Virus record (IMG/VR): IMGVR_UViG_3300030103_003464
Coordinates: 1 to 28,434 of that record
DNA from: a virus
DNA: 28,434 bases
Direction: 5' to 3' (one strand)
Made by a program: the position numbers and the translations under genes. Positions within the stretch are counted from its first letter, which is position 1. Each line of letters starts with the position of its first letter. The notes beneath the pieces were generated by a model, which made no database searches, had not been told where the DNA came from, and saw only the letters and a program-made list of their open reading frames with translations. Positions 1 through 3,611 of the stretch are shown piece after piece.

Positions 1-149
1 CTACTGGTCAGAAATCCTACAGCACCATCATTGGTATTGAAGCAAAGCACGATTGGCAGGCAAGAATTGCTAAAGGTGCAGAGGTTACTGACTTCAACCT
101 GGACAAAATGCCTCAGTCAGAATACATGCCGATGGCATGTGTAGGTTAA
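1..149 (+). CDS. 3' end of an unidentified protein (partial)
   Basis: The reading frame is open from the left edge (codons in phase with base 3) to a TAA at 147-149, giving 49 C-terminal residues that end in MPMACVG. The start lies outside the window. The residues look like ordinary coding sequence, with mixed hydrophobic and charged residues (IIGIEAKHDWQARIAKG), and the next gene follows after only three bases, as expected in a phage operon. I do not recognise the family from this fragment, and no catalytic motif is visible. The call is based on the open frame, the tight spacing to the next gene and the same strand as everything else. Confidence 0.7.
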   Translation, partial: TGQKSYSTIIGIEAKHDWQARIAKGAEVTDFNLDKMPQSEYMPMACVG

Positions 150-152
150 ATT

Positions 153-383
153 ATGTCACTTATCAAATCTTATCTTCACAACAAAATGACTGAAACCACT
201 GACAACATCATCGACCGCGATGTACTTCAGGAGGACATGATTAACCGTATCATAGATGGTATGGATATGGATGGATTGTGTCAACTTGCGTATGATTATT
301 TGAATGAGAATTATGACAAGTATTCCGTGGATGAATTGATTACAGAGGTAGAAGAATACTATCCAGATCTTTTAGAATCTTGA
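153..383 (+). CDS. Small acidic hypothetical protein, 76 aa
   Basis: ATG at 153 lies three bases after the previous stop. An alternative in-frame ATG at 186 would give 65 residues starting MTETTDNIIDR. The product is strongly acidic, with the C-terminal half dominated by Asp and Glu (ELITEVEEYYPDLLES) and predicted to be mostly helical. The segment DGLCQLAYDYLNENYDKYS resembles small acidic proteins of unknown role that I associate with T4-like cyanophage early and middle regions. There is no signal peptide, membrane segment or enzymatic motif. No good Shine-Dalgarno is visible before either start. It is likely translated from the same mRNA as the upstream gene. Function unknown. Confidence 0.75.
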   Translation: MSLIKSYLHNKMTETTDNIIDRDVLQEDMINRIIDGMDMDGLCQLAYDYLNENYDKYSVDELITEVEEYYPDLLES

Positions 384-436
384 TAACATTCTAAGTGTTT
401 CCGAGTGTTTACGAGCGAACGCCAATTTTTTCAACC

Positions 437-586
437 ATGATGACACCAACCGATTTTGACCGTTCTATACTAGAACTGACTGAGAGGAAGTTTAATCTCC
501 AGAAAGAGATTGAAGGAATCGAAGTAACAATTAAGTTTCTGAGATTCCAGAAGTCACGAACTGTCCCCCCTAAAGCGTATCAGTAG
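437..586 (+). CDS. Putative 49-aa coiled-coil-like hypothetical protein
   Basis: The open frame extends upstream to a GTG at 395, but the ATG-ATG pair at 437/440 is the more credible start (MMTPTDFDRSILELTERK). The body is one amphipathic helix with Leu/Ile spacing and alternating Lys/Glu (LELTERKFNLQKEIEGIEVTI), which suggests a short coiled coil. The stop TAG at 584-586 lies inside the C-rich repeated motif that starts at 562, so the last residues (TVPPKAYQ) are encoded by what may be a regulatory element. No Shine-Dalgarno is visible. The short length makes the call moderate. Helical phage accessory proteins of this size are common and function cannot be inferred. Confidence 0.5.
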   Translation: MMTPTDFDRSILELTERKFNLQKEIEGIEVTIKFLRFQKSRTVPPKAYQ

Positions 587-592
587 TGTAAG
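562..592 (+). repeat. C-rich direct repeat, copy 1 (TGTCCCCCCTAAAG-N11-TGTAAG)
   Basis: TGTCCCCCCTAAAG at 562-575 is followed 11 bases later by TGTAAG at 587-592. The same two blocks with the same spacing recur at 1852-1882. This copy lies at the end of the 49-residue ORF and about 70 bases before the gene at 664. It may be a promoter-like or regulatory element, with TGTAAG in a -10-like position. That role is inference; the repetition is directly visible. Confidence 0.6.
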
Positions 593-663
593 GATCACTA
601 GGACGGACCCACCGACACCTCACCGAACTGATTCTAAACTTCACTTCACTAACCTCACTAATC

Positions 664-1023
664 ATGCGTAAGATCGAAAAACAAATGATTGCCGCAATTA
701 AGTCTGAAACTGACTGGCAGTCCGGTAACACAAAGGTCATCAATTTCTTTAATGATGGTGACAAATGTGTTGTCTCTTCTGTGTTCCTTCATGGTAACAA
801 GATTGCAGAAATTACTGATACTGATATGATGATCTTCGATGGAGGTTATCAGTCCGTTACTACAAAATCTAGACTCAATGCACTTTGTGATGAATTCTGC
901 ATTGCTGGTGAAGGAGTATTTCAGAAAGATTTCGCTTGGTATGTGAGAAAGTTTGTAGGTGCGATTAACGGTGAGAAAATCTTCAAAACTGAAGATTTCA
1001 ATAACGGTTATATTTTTGCTTGA
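664..1023 (+). CDS. Conserved small phage protein of unknown function, 119 aa
   Basis: ATG at 664 and TGA at 1021-1023. The protein starts MRKIEKQMIAAIKS and has the pattern TDWQSGNTKV ... VFLHGNKIAEI ... FDGGYQSVTTKSRLNAL ... FQKDFAWYV. I recognise this as a small protein widespread in marine phages (myo- and podoviruses), usually annotated only as hypothetical. The conserved parts are the central 'LHGN-IA' strand and the 'TTKSRLNAL' helix. No catalytic residues are assignable and there is no signal or membrane segment. The leader (593-663) is pyrimidine-rich with repeated TTCAC/CTCAC words and has no Shine-Dalgarno. The C-rich motif at 562 lies just upstream and may drive it. A 201-codon open frame on the opposite strand overlaps this gene but is its shadow. 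Confidence 0.88.
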   Translation: MRKIEKQMIAAIKSETDWQSGNTKVINFFNDGDKCVVSSVFLHGNKIAEITDTDMMIFDGGYQSVTTKSRLNALCDEFCIAGEGVFQKDFAWYVRKFVGAINGEKIFKTEDFNNGYIFA

Positions 1024-1033
1024 TTGATTGATG

Positions 1034-1060
1034 GTCCTAAGTAAGACTCTAAACTGCTTA
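1034..1060 (+). repeat. 27-base direct repeat, copy 1
   Basis: GTCCTAAGTAAGAC followed by two variable bases and TAAACTGCTTA. The copy at 1205-1231 differs only in the two central bases (TC versus AT). It begins 11 bases after the stop of the 119-residue gene and ends 29 bases before the ATG of the 30-residue ORF. TAAG...CTTA can form a weak 4-bp stem. Function unknown; it could be a promoter, processing site or recombination-derived repeat. Confidence 0.8.
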
Positions 1061-1089
1061 TCTTTGTGTCCTTTCTTAACACTTTTATC

Positions 1090-1182
1090 ATGTCCAAAAC
1101 TGAGTTGTTTGATCTCCTTGATTCCTGCAATTCTGGTCGGGAGATTGAACTTATTCTCGATGCAATTACTGAACTTTACTGA
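1090..1182 (+). CDS. Putative 30-aa micro-protein
   Basis: ATG at 1090 and TGA at 1180-1182 encode MSKTELFDLLDSCN followed by SGREIELILDAITELY. The composition is that of a compact two-helix peptide: an amphipathic helix, a Ser-Gly-Arg turn and a second helix. No random-sequence bias is evident, and the frame sits neatly between two copies of a 27-base direct repeat (1034 and 1205), which suggests a gene cassette. There is no clear Shine-Dalgarno in the leader (tcttaacacttttatc). At this length chance cannot be excluded. The helix-turn-helix-like charge pattern and position raise it above background. Function unknown. Confidence 0.55.
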   Translation: MSKTELFDLLDSCNSGREIELILDAITELY

Positions 1183-1204
1183 TAGTCTTTTTATGTGATT
1201 TCCC

Positions 1205-1231
1205 GTCCTAAGTAAGACATTAAACTGCTTA
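1205..1231 (+). repeat. 27-base direct repeat, copy 2
   Basis: Second copy of the element at 1034-1060, identical at 25 of 27 positions. It lies 22 bases after the micro-ORF stop and 24 bases before the terminator hairpin at 1255, so the repeat pair brackets the micro-ORF. Confidence 0.8.
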
Positions 1232-1254
1232 GTTATAAGTGGGTAAGTGATACC

Positions 1255-1283
1255 GAGGGGCATCTAGTCAGTGCCCCTTTTTT
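1255..1283 (+). terminator. Rho-independent terminator
   Basis: Stem AGGGGCA (1256-1262) pairs with TGCCCCT (1272-1278) across a nine-base loop, followed directly by a run of T residues to 1283. This is a textbook intrinsic terminator. It closes the transcript carrying the genes at 664 and 1090 and isolates it from the 1618 gene. Confidence 0.88.
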
Positions 1284-1540
1284 GTATCAACTTATACATA
1301 AAGTATTAAAAAATCAATTAAAAATGGTATTATAAATATGTTTTCGTTTTTTATAGTAAGAGTTAATGTGTAGTATATCTGTAGTTGCTGCGTAGTATCT
1401 GTGGAGGATATTTGTGTTGATTTTAATGTGCTCAGGTCTTGTGATCTAAGCGAGCAGTCTATCACCTTCTCGCAGATATGTCAAGGGACCGCTGATAAGT
1501 TTTTCTGAGGATTGCCGTGTTAAAAATATCAGAATTCCTC
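1284..1540. other. Non-coding stretch with late-promoter word, short repeat and hairpin potential
   Basis: No frame longer than about 11 codons begins here on the + strand. The left part is very A+T-rich and contains TATAAATA (1331-1338). A near-repeat follows: TGTGTAGTATATCTGTAG at 1367-1384 and TGCGTAGTATCTGTGG at 1389-1404. Around 1441-1475 two mutually exclusive stems are possible: GTGAT (1441-1445) with ATCAC (1461-1465), and GCGAG (1450-1454) with CTCGC (1469-1473). No tRNA arms are recognisable. It could be an untranslated leader or a small RNA; the sequence alone does not decide. Confidence 0.5.
1331..1338 (+). promoter_or_regulatory. T4-type late promoter word TATAAATA
   Basis: The exact T4 late -10 consensus TATAAATA sits 48 bases after the terminator in a non-coding region. 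It is nearly 290 bases from the next start codon (1618), so if active it makes a long untranslated leader or a non-coding RNA. In A+T-rich DNA a single 8-base match may be chance. Confidence 0.45.
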
Positions 1541-1550
1541 ATAAATAAAC
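1540..1550 (+). promoter_or_regulatory. Late promoter candidate CATAAATAAAC
   Basis: ATAAATA (1541-1547) matches the NATAAATA form expected for T4-like cyanophage late promoters. It lies 70 bases before the ATG at 1618 and just upstream of a sigma70-type promoter, so the 1618 gene may have both a host-type early promoter and a late promoter. Confidence 0.5.
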
Positions 1551-1559
1551 ACTGGATGA

Positions 1560-1588
1560 TTGACAATATCTCTCACCTACTCTATACT
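1560..1588 (+). promoter_or_regulatory. Sigma70-type promoter for the 1618 gene
   Basis: TTGACA at 1560-1565 (perfect -35), a 17-base spacer, and TATACT at 1583-1588 (one mismatch to TATAAT). Transcription would start near 1595, some 20 bases before the AGGGG Shine-Dalgarno (1606-1610) and the ATG at 1618. This is what an early promoter read by host RNA polymerase should look like. Confidence 0.85.
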
Positions 1589-1617
1589 GTATCAGTAACA
1601 CTCACAGGGGTCCAGTC

Positions 1618-1791
1618 ATGTCAGTTGTTTATCACCAAGCACAAAAGCAGAAGTACAGAGTCACCCTTGAATTAGACGTGATGGAAGACTTCAATCCACA
1701 CAATATGAATTGGAATGAACTTTTTGATTTGGGTGGTGATGAACACTGTGAGGCGTATGTAGAGGATCTGAGTAAACCGTATAGTTGGTAG
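1618..1791 (+). CDS. Small cyanophage-type hypothetical protein, 57 aa
   Basis: ATG at 1618, TAG at 1789-1791. A Shine-Dalgarno AGGGG lies seven bases before the ATG and a near-consensus promoter (1560-1588) just upstream, so the start is well supported. The protein begins MSVVYHQAQKQKYRVTLEL and continues with EDFNPHNMNW, LFDLGGDEHCEAYVEDL and a terminal SKPYSW. The pattern 'strand of alternating hydrophobics, then DFNPH-x-x-W, then a helix, then YVEDL' matches small acidic proteins I recall from T4-like cyanophages. It probably folds as a small alpha/beta protein. Function unknown; position behind an early-type promoter suggests host-takeover or early expression. Confidence 0.85.
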   Translation: MSVVYHQAQKQKYRVTLELDVMEDFNPHNMNWNELFDLGGDEHCEAYVEDLSKPYSW

Positions 1792-1798
1792 TAAGTAT

Positions 1799-1901
1799 CA
1801 TAGAGTCGTGCGTGAGTACGTGTTAGTCAGCGTGGGGGCAGTATCATTAATTGTCCCCCCTAAAGTGTCGCATCTATGTAAGCACGACTCACGACTCTAT
1901 G
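1799..1901 (+). promoter_or_regulatory. Long imperfect hairpin enclosing the start codon of the 1899 gene
   Basis: CATAGAGTCGTG (1799-1810) is a perfect 12-base inverted repeat of CACGACTCTATG (1890-1901). Pairing continues inward with bulges: AGT 1815-1817 with ACT 1887-1889, CGTG 1819-1822 with CACG 1883-1886, and TTA 1823-1825 with TAA 1879-1881. An inner stem joins GGGGGCA (1834-1840) and TG-T-CCCCC (1852-1859) around a short loop. The ATG at 1899-1901 is the last three bases of the outer arm, so folding would bury the ribosome binding region. It contains copy 2 of the C-rich repeat. This is a likely translational control or RNA-processing structure. Confidence 0.7.
1852..1882 (+). repeat. 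C-rich direct repeat, copy 2 (TGTCCCCCCTAAAG-N11-TGTAAG)
   Basis: TGTCCCCCCTAAAG at 1852-1865 and TGTAAG at 1877-1882, with the same spacing as copy 1 at 562-592. In this copy the C-run is also the right arm of the inner stem of the hairpin at 1799-1901. TGTAAG lies 16 bases before the ATG at 1899. Confidence 0.6.
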
Positions 1902-2156
1902 ACCACCGCATTTCAGACAGATCTCACCGATACTACCTACAACGGTTGGACAAACTATGAGACCTGGAATGTAGCACTCTGGATCGGAAATGATCAGGGT
2001 CTGTATCACTTAGCAAAAGAGGCAGGTGATTATCAGACTTTTGTAGATTGTCTGCTGGCGCCTACATTTAGTGATGCCACGACTGATGATGGTGTCATGT
2101 GGAATGACCCTAGAATTAATGTTGTTGAACTCAATGAAATGTTTGAAGAACTTTGA
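1899..2156 (+). CDS. Conserved 'NGWTNYETWNVALWI' phage protein, 85 aa
   Basis: ATG at 1899, TGA at 2154-2156. The open frame continues upstream to a TTG at 1851, but that extension is the C-rich repeat and hairpin, so the ATG is preferred. The diagnostic segment is TYNGWTNYETWNVALWIGND, characteristic of a small family of unknown function found in many phages and their hosts (I recall it as a DUF without a known role). The rest is acidic, with a C-terminal DPRINVVELNEMFEEL helix. There is no membrane segment or signal. The start codon lies in the arm of a perfect 12-bp inverted repeat, so translation is probably structure-controlled. It is followed by the promoter-bearing hairpin at 2168. Confidence 0.88.
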   Translation: MTTAFQTDLTDTTYNGWTNYETWNVALWIGNDQGLYHLAKEAGDYQTFVDCLLAPTFSDATTDDGVMWNDPRINVVELNEMFEEL

Positions 2157-2167
2157 TACTTAGCAGC

Positions 2168-2206
2168 GGGGCAGTTGTTGACACTCTGCCCCGGATCTGG
2201 TATACT
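2168..2206 (+). promoter_or_regulatory. Sigma70-type promoter overlapping a GC hairpin
   Basis: TTGACA at 2178-2183, a 17-base spacer, TATACT at 2201-2206: the same -35, -10 and spacing as the 1560 promoter. It is superimposed on a stem GGGGCAG (2168-2174) / CTGCCCC (2186-2192), so the -35 hexamer sits in the 11-base loop. The hairpin lacks a T-run and is probably not a standard terminator. It drives the 2342 gene through a structured leader. Confidence 0.82.
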
Positions 2207-2215
2207 GAGAGATAA

Positions 2216-2311
2216 CACCTCCGAAACACAGTTAGGGCGGCGGTTGTTGTTATCGTGCCGGGGCGCGATGCCGTATATAAAAACGACTAACTACCCTAAC
2301 CTACAGAGGTG
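2216..2311 (+). promoter_or_regulatory. Multi-helix structured 5' leader (candidate cis-regulatory RNA)
   Basis: Nested complementary segments are visible: CACCTC (2216-2221) with GAGGTG (2306-2311); GTTAGGG (2231-2237) with CCCTAAC (2294-2300); CGGC (2238-2241) with GCCG (2270-2273); and ATCGTGC (2252-2258) with GCGCGAT (2263-2269) closed by a CGGG tetraloop and one G-T pair. All four helices are mutually compatible. The element begins about 3 bases after the expected transcription start of the 2178 promoter and ends 30 bases before the TTG start at 2342. I do not match it to a known riboswitch class; the glutamine-type motifs known in cyanophages are not apparent. Confidence 0.65.
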
Positions 2312-2341
2312 ACAATTCGCGAGTGATATATAATTGAACTT

Positions 2342-2599
2342 TTGAATACATCAGCAGAAAAAAAATTCCGCCAAAAAATTTTTATGGAAAAGGTTTATCA
2401 CATCTATGCAAAGAAAGAATGTTTATATAATAATCTAACAGAAACACAATTCAATGATACATGGGAAACCCTCAAGGGAATGGTTGGTCTAATGAAGACT
2501 GATTATGAACTTGAGGATTTATCATATGAGGAGGTATTTCGCTCCCAAGGGGGAGGTTCGGGAAACTTCAATGATCCACCTGGGTGTGATTCATATTGA
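2342..2599 (+). CDS. Conserved cyanophage hypothetical protein, 85 aa
   Basis: The frame opens with TTG at 2342 (MNTSAEKKFRQKIFMEKV), with an alternative ATG at 2384 (MEKVYHIYAK). I prefer TTG because the segment EKKFRQKIFMEKVYHIYAK reads as one conserved helix, and I recall cyanophage homologues that include it. Further segments are CLYNNLTETQFNDTW and LKGMVGLMKTDYELEDLSYEEV, followed by a Gly-rich tail (SQGGGSGN) and DPPGCDSY. It is a small helical protein with no enzymatic motif. It lies behind a consensus sigma70-type promoter at 2178-2206 and a structured leader, and its stop overlaps the -35 of the next promoter. Function unknown. Confidence 0.82.
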   Translation: MNTSAEKKFRQKIFMEKVYHIYAKKECLYNNLTETQFNDTWETLKGMVGLMKTDYELEDLSYEEVFRSQGGGSGNFNDPPGCDSY

Positions 2600-2624
2600 C
2601 TTTATACATACTACACGTTATAAT
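2596..2624 (+). promoter_or_regulatory. Sigma70-type promoter for the 2648 gene
   Basis: TTGACT at 2596-2601, a 17-base spacer, TATAAT at 2619-2624. The -35 overlaps the stop codon of the preceding gene (TGA 2597-2599). Transcription would start near 2631, leaving a leader of about 17 bases before the ATG at 2648. Confidence 0.8.
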
Positions 2625-2647
2625 TGATCTGAAGGTTAACTCAAGTT

Positions 2648-3415
2648 ATGGCTAAAGGATTCACGGTAAAAGCAAAAACGCCCACAAAGAAAAAAGAAGA
2701 GTGGGATATTCCAGCAATCAAAGAAAGGATGAAAGGTAAGACAATTGTATTTTGTCTGCCCGGTCGAGGATGCTCATATATTTTTCTGAAGAACTTTGTA
2801 CAACTGTGCTTTGATATGGTACAGTCTGGTATTGCTATTCAGATTAGTCAAGACTATTCGTCAATGGTAAACTTTGCACGTTGTAAGGTTCTTGGAGCAA
2901 ACGTACTGCGTGGACCTAAGCAAATTCCTTGGGATGGTAAGTTACAGTATGATTACCAACTATGGATTGACTCGGATATTGTCTTTGACACTAACAAGTT
3001 CTGGCAACTCTGCGATCTTGCATTCCCTGCTGAAGGAGAAGAGAAAGAGATTGTTGCAGGATGGTATGCTACAGAGGACGGCACGACTACCTCAGTAGCA
3101 CACTGGTTGGAGGAAGATGAGTTCCGAACCAATGGTGGAGTAATGAATCATGAAACTGTTGAATCCATCTCTAAACGACGCAAACCATTTACCGTAGATT
3201 ACACAGGTTTTGGATGGGTATTAATTAAGAAAGGTGTTTTTGAAGGTCTTGAGTATCCTTGGTTCGCACCTAAGATGCAAGTCTTTGAATCTGGTAAAGT
3301 TCAGGACATGTGTGGTGAGGATGTCTCATTCTGTCTTGATGCTAAGGAAGAGGGATATGAGATCTGGTGCGACCCTCGGATTCGTGTTGGGCACGAAAAA
3401 ACTCGTATTATCTAA
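2648..3415 (+). CDS. Putative GT-A-type glycosyltransferase, 255 aa
   Basis: ATG at 2648 has its own promoter. A basic N-terminal tail (KAKTPTKKKEEW) precedes a Rossmann-like start, KTIVFCLPGRGCSYIFLKNF (residues about 30-50). The signature of a GT-A glycosyltransferase is the DSD motif at residues 108-110 (WIDSDIVF), the usual metal and nucleotide-sugar binding site. A GED motif follows at 223-225 (CGEDVSFCLDA), where the family places its catalytic acid, and a late His at 249 (VGHEK) could be a third metal ligand. Also typical is VDYTGFGWVLIKKGVFE. No membrane segment is present, so it would act in the cytoplasm, perhaps modifying virion proteins or a host polysaccharide precursor. The acceptor is unknown. 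Confidence 0.78.
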   Translation: MAKGFTVKAKTPTKKKEEWDIPAIKERMKGKTIVFCLPGRGCSYIFLKNFVQLCFDMVQSGIAIQISQDYSSMVNFARCKVLGANVLRGPKQIPWDGKLQYDYQLWIDSDIVFDTNKFWQLCDLAFPAEGEEKEIVAGWYATEDGTTTSVAHWLEEDEFRTNGGVMNHETVESISKRRKPFTVDYTGFGWVLIKKGVFEGLEYPWFAPKMQVFESGKVQDMCGEDVSFCLDAKEEGYEIWCDPRIRVGHEKTRII

Positions 3416-3438
3416 CCGCGTTACTCGGTACACATTAT

Positions 3439-3444
3439 AAGGAG
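3439..3444 (+). promoter_or_regulatory. Strong Shine-Dalgarno AAGGAG
   Basis: AAGGAG ends seven bases before the ATG at 3452. It is the strongest ribosome binding site among the genes here, most of which have none, and it fixes the start of the 44-residue ORF. Confidence 0.75.
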
Positions 3445-3451
3445 ATTACAC

Positions 3452-3586
3452 ATGGCAATTATGAAAGGTGGCGGTTATATTGAAGGTCGCCCGAAAAAGT
3501 CTCGTCAAGGTTCAGGAAAACACACTAAGATTTCCGCGACCTCTCGTAACGGAAAAGAAAAAAGGTATAGAGGACAAGGTAGATAG
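3452..3586 (+). CDS. Highly basic small protein, 44 aa
   Basis: ATG at 3452, TAG at 3584-3586. The start is fixed by the AAGGAG site seven bases upstream. The product begins MAIMKGGGYIEGRPKKSRQG, continues SGKHTKISATSRNGKEK and ends RYRGQGR. About a third of residues are Lys, Arg or His with almost no acidic residues, and many Gly and Ser, giving an extended, nucleic-acid-binding character. I recall a near-identical small protein encoded in other T4-like cyanophages close to the baseplate genes, usually unannotated. It may bind DNA or RNA, or be a minor virion component; neither is shown. It is too short for a domain assignment, but the composition and strong ribosome site make a real gene likely. 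Confidence 0.82.
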   Translation: MAIMKGGGYIEGRPKKSRQGSGKHTKISATSRNGKEKRYRGQGR

Positions 3587-3611
3587 ATAGTAAGAATAGT
3601 GAAGTTTTTCT

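Follow-up and report, generated by a model that had tools for sequence, protein, structure and literature searches.

A 27-base repeat that occurs twice in a fragment of a cyanophage genome represents an RNA element which, judged from the way its sequence varies between copies, folds as an H-type pseudoknot; both this structure and its wide distribution can be taken as nearly certain. The element lies mainly outside ORFs, usually on the strand of its neighbours, and resembles coremin, a short RNA of beet necrotic yellow vein virus (BNYVV) and other RNA viruses. By analogy with coremin, we propose, with a probability of roughly 0.6, that the phage element is a roadblock of the exonuclease-resistant type that would protect downstream phage RNA from 5'-3' decay.

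The window analysed here is the whole stretch of 28,434 bases. It matches 258 phage records, all Synechococcus, Cyanophage or Prochlorococcus, and by these similarities it is a fragment of a marine T4-like cyanophage (Kyanoviridae). No tRNA was found in the window. The repeat, GTCCTAAGTAAGAC-NN-TAAACTGCTTA, is present on the + strand at 1034-1060 (NN = TC) and at 1205-1231 (NN = AT), so that only the two central bases differ between the copies, as the initial annotation had described. Matches to it were absent from 100 dinucleotide shuffles, and no further copies were found within the window at up to three mismatches. The features of this region are as follows.

664-1023, + strand: 119-codon ORF, upstream of copy 1 and conserved in cyanophages
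1034-1060, + strand: predicted pseudoknot RNA, copy 1, from the repeat search and stem covariation
1034-1036 paired with 1045-1047, + strand: S1 of copy 1, with a possible fourth pair G1033-U1048
1037-1060, + strand: remainder of copy 1, with L1 C1037; S2 1038-1043 paired with 1055-1060; L2 A1044; L3 1048-1054 (TC-UAAAC)
1090-1182, + strand: 30-codon micro-ORF lying between the two repeats; it begins 29 nt downstream of copy 1 and stops 22 nt short of copy 2
1205-1231, + strand: predicted pseudoknot RNA, copy 2, from the repeat search and the descriptor
1205-1207 paired with 1216-1218, + strand: S1 of copy 2, with L1 C1208 and S2 1209-1214 paired with 1226-1231
1215 and 1219-1225, + strand: L2 A1215 and L3 (AT-UAAAC) of copy 2
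1255-1283, + strand: intrinsic terminator-like hairpin (1255-1279) with a T run, 23 nt downstream of copy 2

The repeat had been placed right after the ORF upstream of it, which is a fair description for copy 1, 10 nt from the stop of the 119-codon ORF, and a looser one for copy 2, at 22 nt. The 30-codon ORF is probably real, since its peptide is kept in the cyanophage relative L003 with five of the six base differences being synonymous; tblastn gave no match to it at E ≤ 1 among 50,697 phage records. The terminator-like hairpin is also present in L003, with its loop changed, and a stable RNA of about 80 nt would be bounded by this hairpin and copy 2. Another intergenic repeat, TGTCCCCCCTAAAG with similar flanks, is located ahead of ORFs at 554-599 and 1844-1889 of the window (72% identity over 46 nt) and is possibly a separate regulatory signal.

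Elements of the form seen in the window consist of S1 (N-GUC:GAC-N), L1 (C), S2 (URAGYA:UGCUYA), L2 (W) and L3 (NN-UAAAC). In the broad consensus N-GUC:GAC-N is placed around C, then U-NNN-Y-A and W, and S1 is followed by two bases in most copies, by U/A-AAAC-U and by the S2 partner. The two interleaved stems are retained across the variants. Pairing was assessed using searches in which one stem was left open. With S1 open and only its C3:G12 pair fixed, 153 of 158 unique sites paired at both open positions; 102 of these sites were not GT:AC, yet 97 of them still paired, with many pair types. With S2 open except for A10:U22 and G23, 177 of 208 sites paired at all four counted positions, the stems including GGAC:GUCC, GGUC:GACC, CAGC:GCUG and GGCU:GGCC.

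The covariation score of 100 chosen sequences was 0.592, against 0.215 when shuffled and at most 0.167 when slid, although these rows were selected by a descriptor that requires pairing, and the open-stem searches are the fair tests. Columns 2:17 and 7:29, where pairing was not required in the 100-row alignment, paired in 84 and 64 of the 100 rows, respectively. The general descriptor found 468 sites in 3.27 Mb of collected loci and a single site in the reversed sequence. In Synechococcus phage S-CRM01 the pair 9:23 also switches to U:A. C4, A10, AAAC and U22 hardly vary, in loci that were mostly seeded with those bases; of the 454 copies, 376 fit a search pattern and the other 78 fit none.

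Outside the window the repeat recurs and is kept as an RNA structure. When IMG/VR was scanned for exact matches to the 25 fixed bases, three contigs were obtained, namely L003 and the unrelated phages L001 and L002, which have different bases at the NN place. A looser pattern gave 16 contigs, and broader patterns gave at least 120 contigs each. Using a 33-mer BLAST query, the element was found in phage records of S-H38, S-SM2, S-CRM01, a crAss-like phage and Roseobacter phage CRP-6; four of the 12 records returned (two Klebsiella and two Streptococcus satellite phages, with partial coding matches) were not counted. A TGAGC-type query, for which seven loci were inspected, matched 106 phage records, including Mycobacterium, Arthrobacter, Nostoc and Lactobacillus phages and Roseobacter SIO1, as well as Escherichia and Vibrio phages; the Escherichia S1 has a mismatch. 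Bacterial genome contigs contributed 93 stretches, and the 80 genome titles considered among these include Clostridia, Saccharibacteria, Deltaproteobacteria, Bacteroidota and one Acinetobacter. Most element-carrying loci (279/344) have one copy.

Seven small Acinetobacter plasmids were also matched. The two that were inspected have perfect or near-perfect copies (L405 4001-4027 and L406 3001-3026) approximately 660-930 nt upstream of repM, and one copy-bearing Acinetobacter plasmid carries a predicted tet(39).

A known RNA family was considered and rejected at the level of Rfam. Rfam 15 gave no match at E ≤ 1 in positions 1-3600 of the window; in eleven other loci only tRNAs and one hammerhead elsewhere passed the gathering cut-off, and in twenty genome loci the listed coordinates placed no match at the element, apart from a DUF2800 RNA that ends beside it in L323. 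This DUF2800 RNA (2824-2981, - strand) lies directly downstream of the element copy in a Clostridia genome. The hammerhead, a type II ribozyme at 8689-8759 of L002, is on a contig with two element copies. No prior report of the element in phages was found in text and sequence searches of open-licence PMC papers.

The position of the element was examined at 454 unique sites, 366 of which lie outside ORFs of at least 50 codons as called by a crude ORF caller. Where an ORF was present on each side (336 of these sites), both ORFs were on the strand of the element in 265 cases, and 27 sites were between divergent ORFs. At the 338 sites where a long ORF ends no more than 100 nt upstream, the distance from stop to element peaked at 6-8 nt (135/338), with two sites at 3-4 nt after the stop and none at 0-2 nt. 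The next start usually follows some 20-30 nt after the element. The element thus seems to occupy space free of both terminating and initiating ribosomes, and because of this placement the RNA seems to need its folded state. Several chromosomal copies do not fit, since the stop codon lies within the element and a ribosome would unfold the RNA there.

A very short conserved peptide ORF whose stop is overlapped or followed by the element was seen in the genome contigs L309, L312, L319, L326, L353, L354, L363, L365, L390 and L391, and in L347, L349, L369, L381 and L386. The peptide ends in H-C-x-x-G-C or H-C-x-x-C-G ... S and occurs in Deltaproteobacteria, Actinobacteria, Omnitrophota and others; it is perhaps a peptide precursor or a leader gene.

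Proteins encoded downstream (90 of 150 eligible scanned) and upstream (82 of 151 scanned) of the element are mixed, and its neighbours include SSB, scaffold, thioredoxin, primase/helicase, endolysin and HNH proteins, tRNAs and terminators. A tRNA lies within 150 nt at 27 of the 454 sites, downstream at 22 sites versus upstream at 10, and all 37 neighbouring tRNAs are on the strand of the element. In L016 a copy is located between tRNA-Leu and tRNA-Pro. Upstream of phage tRNAs, the same locus carries another structured element, about 75 nt long and also repeated (456-530 and 953-1040), which ends in another possible pseudoknot, GACC-UGUCAG-UAG-GGUC-UAAA-CUGACA. In S-CRM01 the descriptor finds seven copies, each on the + strand; five are in tRNA arrays, one of them filling the gap between tRNA-Met and tRNA-Leu, and two are 6-8 nt after protein genes. 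An eighth descriptor match, at 38693, is tetraloop-like and without the fourth pair, and is taken as chance because shuffles give 1.4. A minus-strand site at 73031-73052 was matched by pattern and is absent from the descriptor matches.

Small ORFs beside the element differ among the cyanophages L003, L008 and L010, and at the same place the relatives L006, L007 and L009 gave no match with the general descriptor. Units are therefore gained and lost between cyanophages, yet the RNA structure of the repeat is conserved. The check proposed in the initial annotation, on whether small ORFs between copies vary or are absent, is borne out in part. The initial annotation had offered an expression signal copied before each unit as one reading, which came close, the element being an RNA that acts in cis and recurs in transcript gaps, ahead of ORFs and of tRNAs.

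Coremin (xrRNA-C), from benyviruses (BNYVV RNA3) and other RNA viruses, is described as stalling the 5'-3' exonuclease Xrn1 (Dilweg et al. 2023, PMC10520033; Flobinus et al. 2018, PMC5869530). The searches described in the 2023 study covered RNA viruses only, and its account has coremin requiring a downstream hairpin in vitro, calls the structure unsolved and the blocking mechanism elusive, and gives the loops CGAAAU, CGCAAU and CGAGAU as Xrn1-resistant (PMC10520033). Compared with coremin as described there, the phage element has the same commonest S1 (GUC:GAC), the same first loop base (C) and loop end (A-D), a spacer ending in UAAACU, a hairpin of about the same size and a location in UTR or intergenic RNA.

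In the window, both copies have the GUC:GAC stem of the 4-bp coremin hp1, and the fourth pair is possible in copy 1 but not in copy 2. The coremin loop lp1 is YGAD or YGNNAD; the window loop, C-UAAGUA-A, keeps the Y and the A-D, has U for G and is 8 nt long (octaloop). The spacer ending in UAAACU is present in both copies, whereas hp2, which directly follows the spacer in coremin, is absent. Since the loop G and the downstream hairpin are missing, the window elements are coremin-like and not coremin. They differ further in the 6-bp pseudoknot stem S2 between the loop and the 3' strand and in belonging to DNA phages of bacteria, and S2 may stand in for hp2. Downstream stems showed no excess after octaloops (120/440 versus 137/440 shuffled) or after hexaloops (31/107 versus 184/535 shuffled and 135/321 nearby windows).

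The hexaloop form of coremin was itself found in DNA phages, in at least 120 IMG/VR contigs. Among the 107 unique sites examined (none in reversed sequence), which were retrieved with a pattern that itself required the coremin loop, the fourth S1 pair is formed in 91. The commonest loops are CGAAAU and CGCAAU, with CGAGAU also frequent, and in some copies stem, loop and spacer equal the CGAAAU loop tested in the BNYVV context. Hexaloops also peak at 6 nt after stop codons (8/45). They are present in Enterococcus phage SEsuP-1, Lactobacillus phages Lj928, LR2 and JNU_P5, and Synechococcus phages S-CRM01 and S-CBWM1, directly after tRNA-Glu in the last two; S-CRM01 carries both octaloop and hexaloop. 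The two forms live in the same phages and in the same places. Tetraloop, pentaloop and heptaloop coremin forms were not found in the collected loci, a result of little weight in loci fetched with other patterns. The element is thus a new coremin-like RNA, one that forms a true pseudoknot and occurs in hosts of a new realm.

Among 5,426 E. coli genomes, the octaloop query gave no match and a weak hexaloop match was obtained in seven. One of these hexaloop-like copies, in E. coli SI-NP020 (L526 2501-2521), lies 105 nt upstream of an integrase-domain gene. Absence of the element from gammaproteobacteria was therefore rejected, given these matches and those in Vibrio and Escherichia phages.

The proposed mechanism is as follows. 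Each repeat encodes a compact H-type pseudoknot of the coremin kind. Located where a stop codon or tRNA is followed by a gap in the transcript's genes, it would remain folded. It would then act as a mechanical roadblock to decay arriving from the 5' side, so that the upstream RNA is degraded while the downstream gene, tRNA or 3'-terminal small RNA would survive, protected, as a fragment. For the two copies in the window, the protected RNAs would be the message of the micro-ORF (copy 1) and the terminator-bounded RNA of about 80 nt (copy 2). The fold of the element, its spread, its position and strand and its likeness to coremin are observed; the decay block, the enzyme concerned and the benefit to the phage are what we infer. 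Flavivirus xrRNAs share the proposed job of a folded roadblock to 5'-3' exonucleases, but have much larger three-way-junction folds and no sequence likeness to the element; a flaviviral xrRNA is described as blocking bacterial RNase J1 in vitro (PMC5760640).

In most hosts the enzyme would be RNase J, which scored above the family cut-off in 33 of the 40 carrier genomes searched (chosen from the 93) and was split in one more. The carriers below the cut-off are mainly Bacteroidota and Acinetobacter, and Vibrio and Escherichia hosts are not known to have RNase J. Strict dependence on RNase J was rejected in view of these Bacteroidota and Acinetobacter genomes, the Vibrio and Escherichia phages and the Acinetobacter plasmids. 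RNase J cannot be the only target; in carriers without it another enzyme acting from the 5' side would be blocked, possibly 5'-end-dependent scanning nucleases, or the function would be broader. Alternatively, as the element lies close to stop codons, it could serve the upstream gene or the terminating ribosome.

Other functions were weighed against this roadblock. It is unlikely that the element is a protein- or ligand-binding RNA, an operator or riboswitch that controls downstream translation in the manner of the T4 gene 32 pseudoknot. Binding sites typically combine conserved loop bases with stems that are free to vary, and single-strand DNA-binding protein is the top PHROG of assigned function downstream (6 of 90 proteins scanned), but the neighbours overall are very mixed, the tRNA gaps hold nothing to translate and Rfam gave no match. 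The PreQ1-I riboswitch and the T4 gene 32 operator are small H-type pseudoknots in bacterial and phage leaders. They differ from the element in their conserved bases and in being linked to a single gene or a metabolite, and the window has no Rfam match.

Quite unlikely is a processing site or a small self-cleaving ribozyme at which phage transcripts are cut, between tRNAs for instance. The occurrence of the element in tRNA arrays and the hammerhead ribozyme on one carrier contig would suit such a role; against it, Rfam gave no ribozyme match, the core matches a roadblock RNA not known to cleave, and copies flush against tRNAs leave no obvious separate cleavage product.

The spacing of 6-8 nt after the stop is also that of known readthrough and frameshift pseudoknots, and could suggest a pseudoknot acting on the terminating ribosome through readthrough, frameshifting or reinitiation. 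The frame past the stop is not kept open, with at least 30 codons open in 31 of 178 cases in frame versus 52 of 356 in other frames, and copies between tRNAs have no nearby stop codon. Stop-codon readthrough was rejected on these counts, and a ribosome-linked role as a whole is very unlikely, even though coremin is also described as stalling scanning ribosomes in vitro (PMC10520033).

Equally doubtful is a barrier to a different machine, either 3'-5' exonucleases, with protection of the upstream gene, or Rho moving 5'-3'. Of the two distances, that between the element and the stop upstream is the more sharply defined, and Rho would load in gaps that follow stops. The element is also placed upstream of tRNAs more often than downstream of them, and between divergent ORFs, which does not fit such a barrier; cyanobacteria are not known to have Rho. 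The mobile or duplicable cassette boundary put forward in the initial annotation, that is, a recombination or insertion repeat, has a negligible chance of being right even though two near-identical copies bracket the micro-ORF and nearby small ORFs vary among phages, because the stems vary by compensating substitutions and not as DNA copies flanking a unit, single copies outnumber pairs, and the same 25 bases occur in unrelated phages with no common flanks.

A roadblock to 5'-3' decay is thus the reading we prefer. Its wider form, which we hold with slightly less confidence but still on balance favour, is that xrRNAs extend beyond eukaryotic RNA viruses, and that roadblocks of the coremin type, as the hexaloop and the new pseudoknotted octaloop, are present between genes and tRNAs in DNA phages from many bacterial phyla, where they would shield phage RNA against bacterial 5'-3' decay, with the octaloop covariation indicating the loop-spacer pairing of coremin. 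In the phages, covariation pairs the loop with the strand after the spacer, and one A-U pair joins the common loop A to the U of UAAACU. This pairing bears on the question of mechanism raised for coremin in the 2023 study (PMC10520033), and the structure is directly testable. If the proposal is true, phages of most bacterial groups and RNA viruses of plants, fungi and the sea would share a tiny RNA device against 5'-3' decay, which would open a new side of the conflict between phage and host and provide a simple, portable stabiliser for bacterial RNA.
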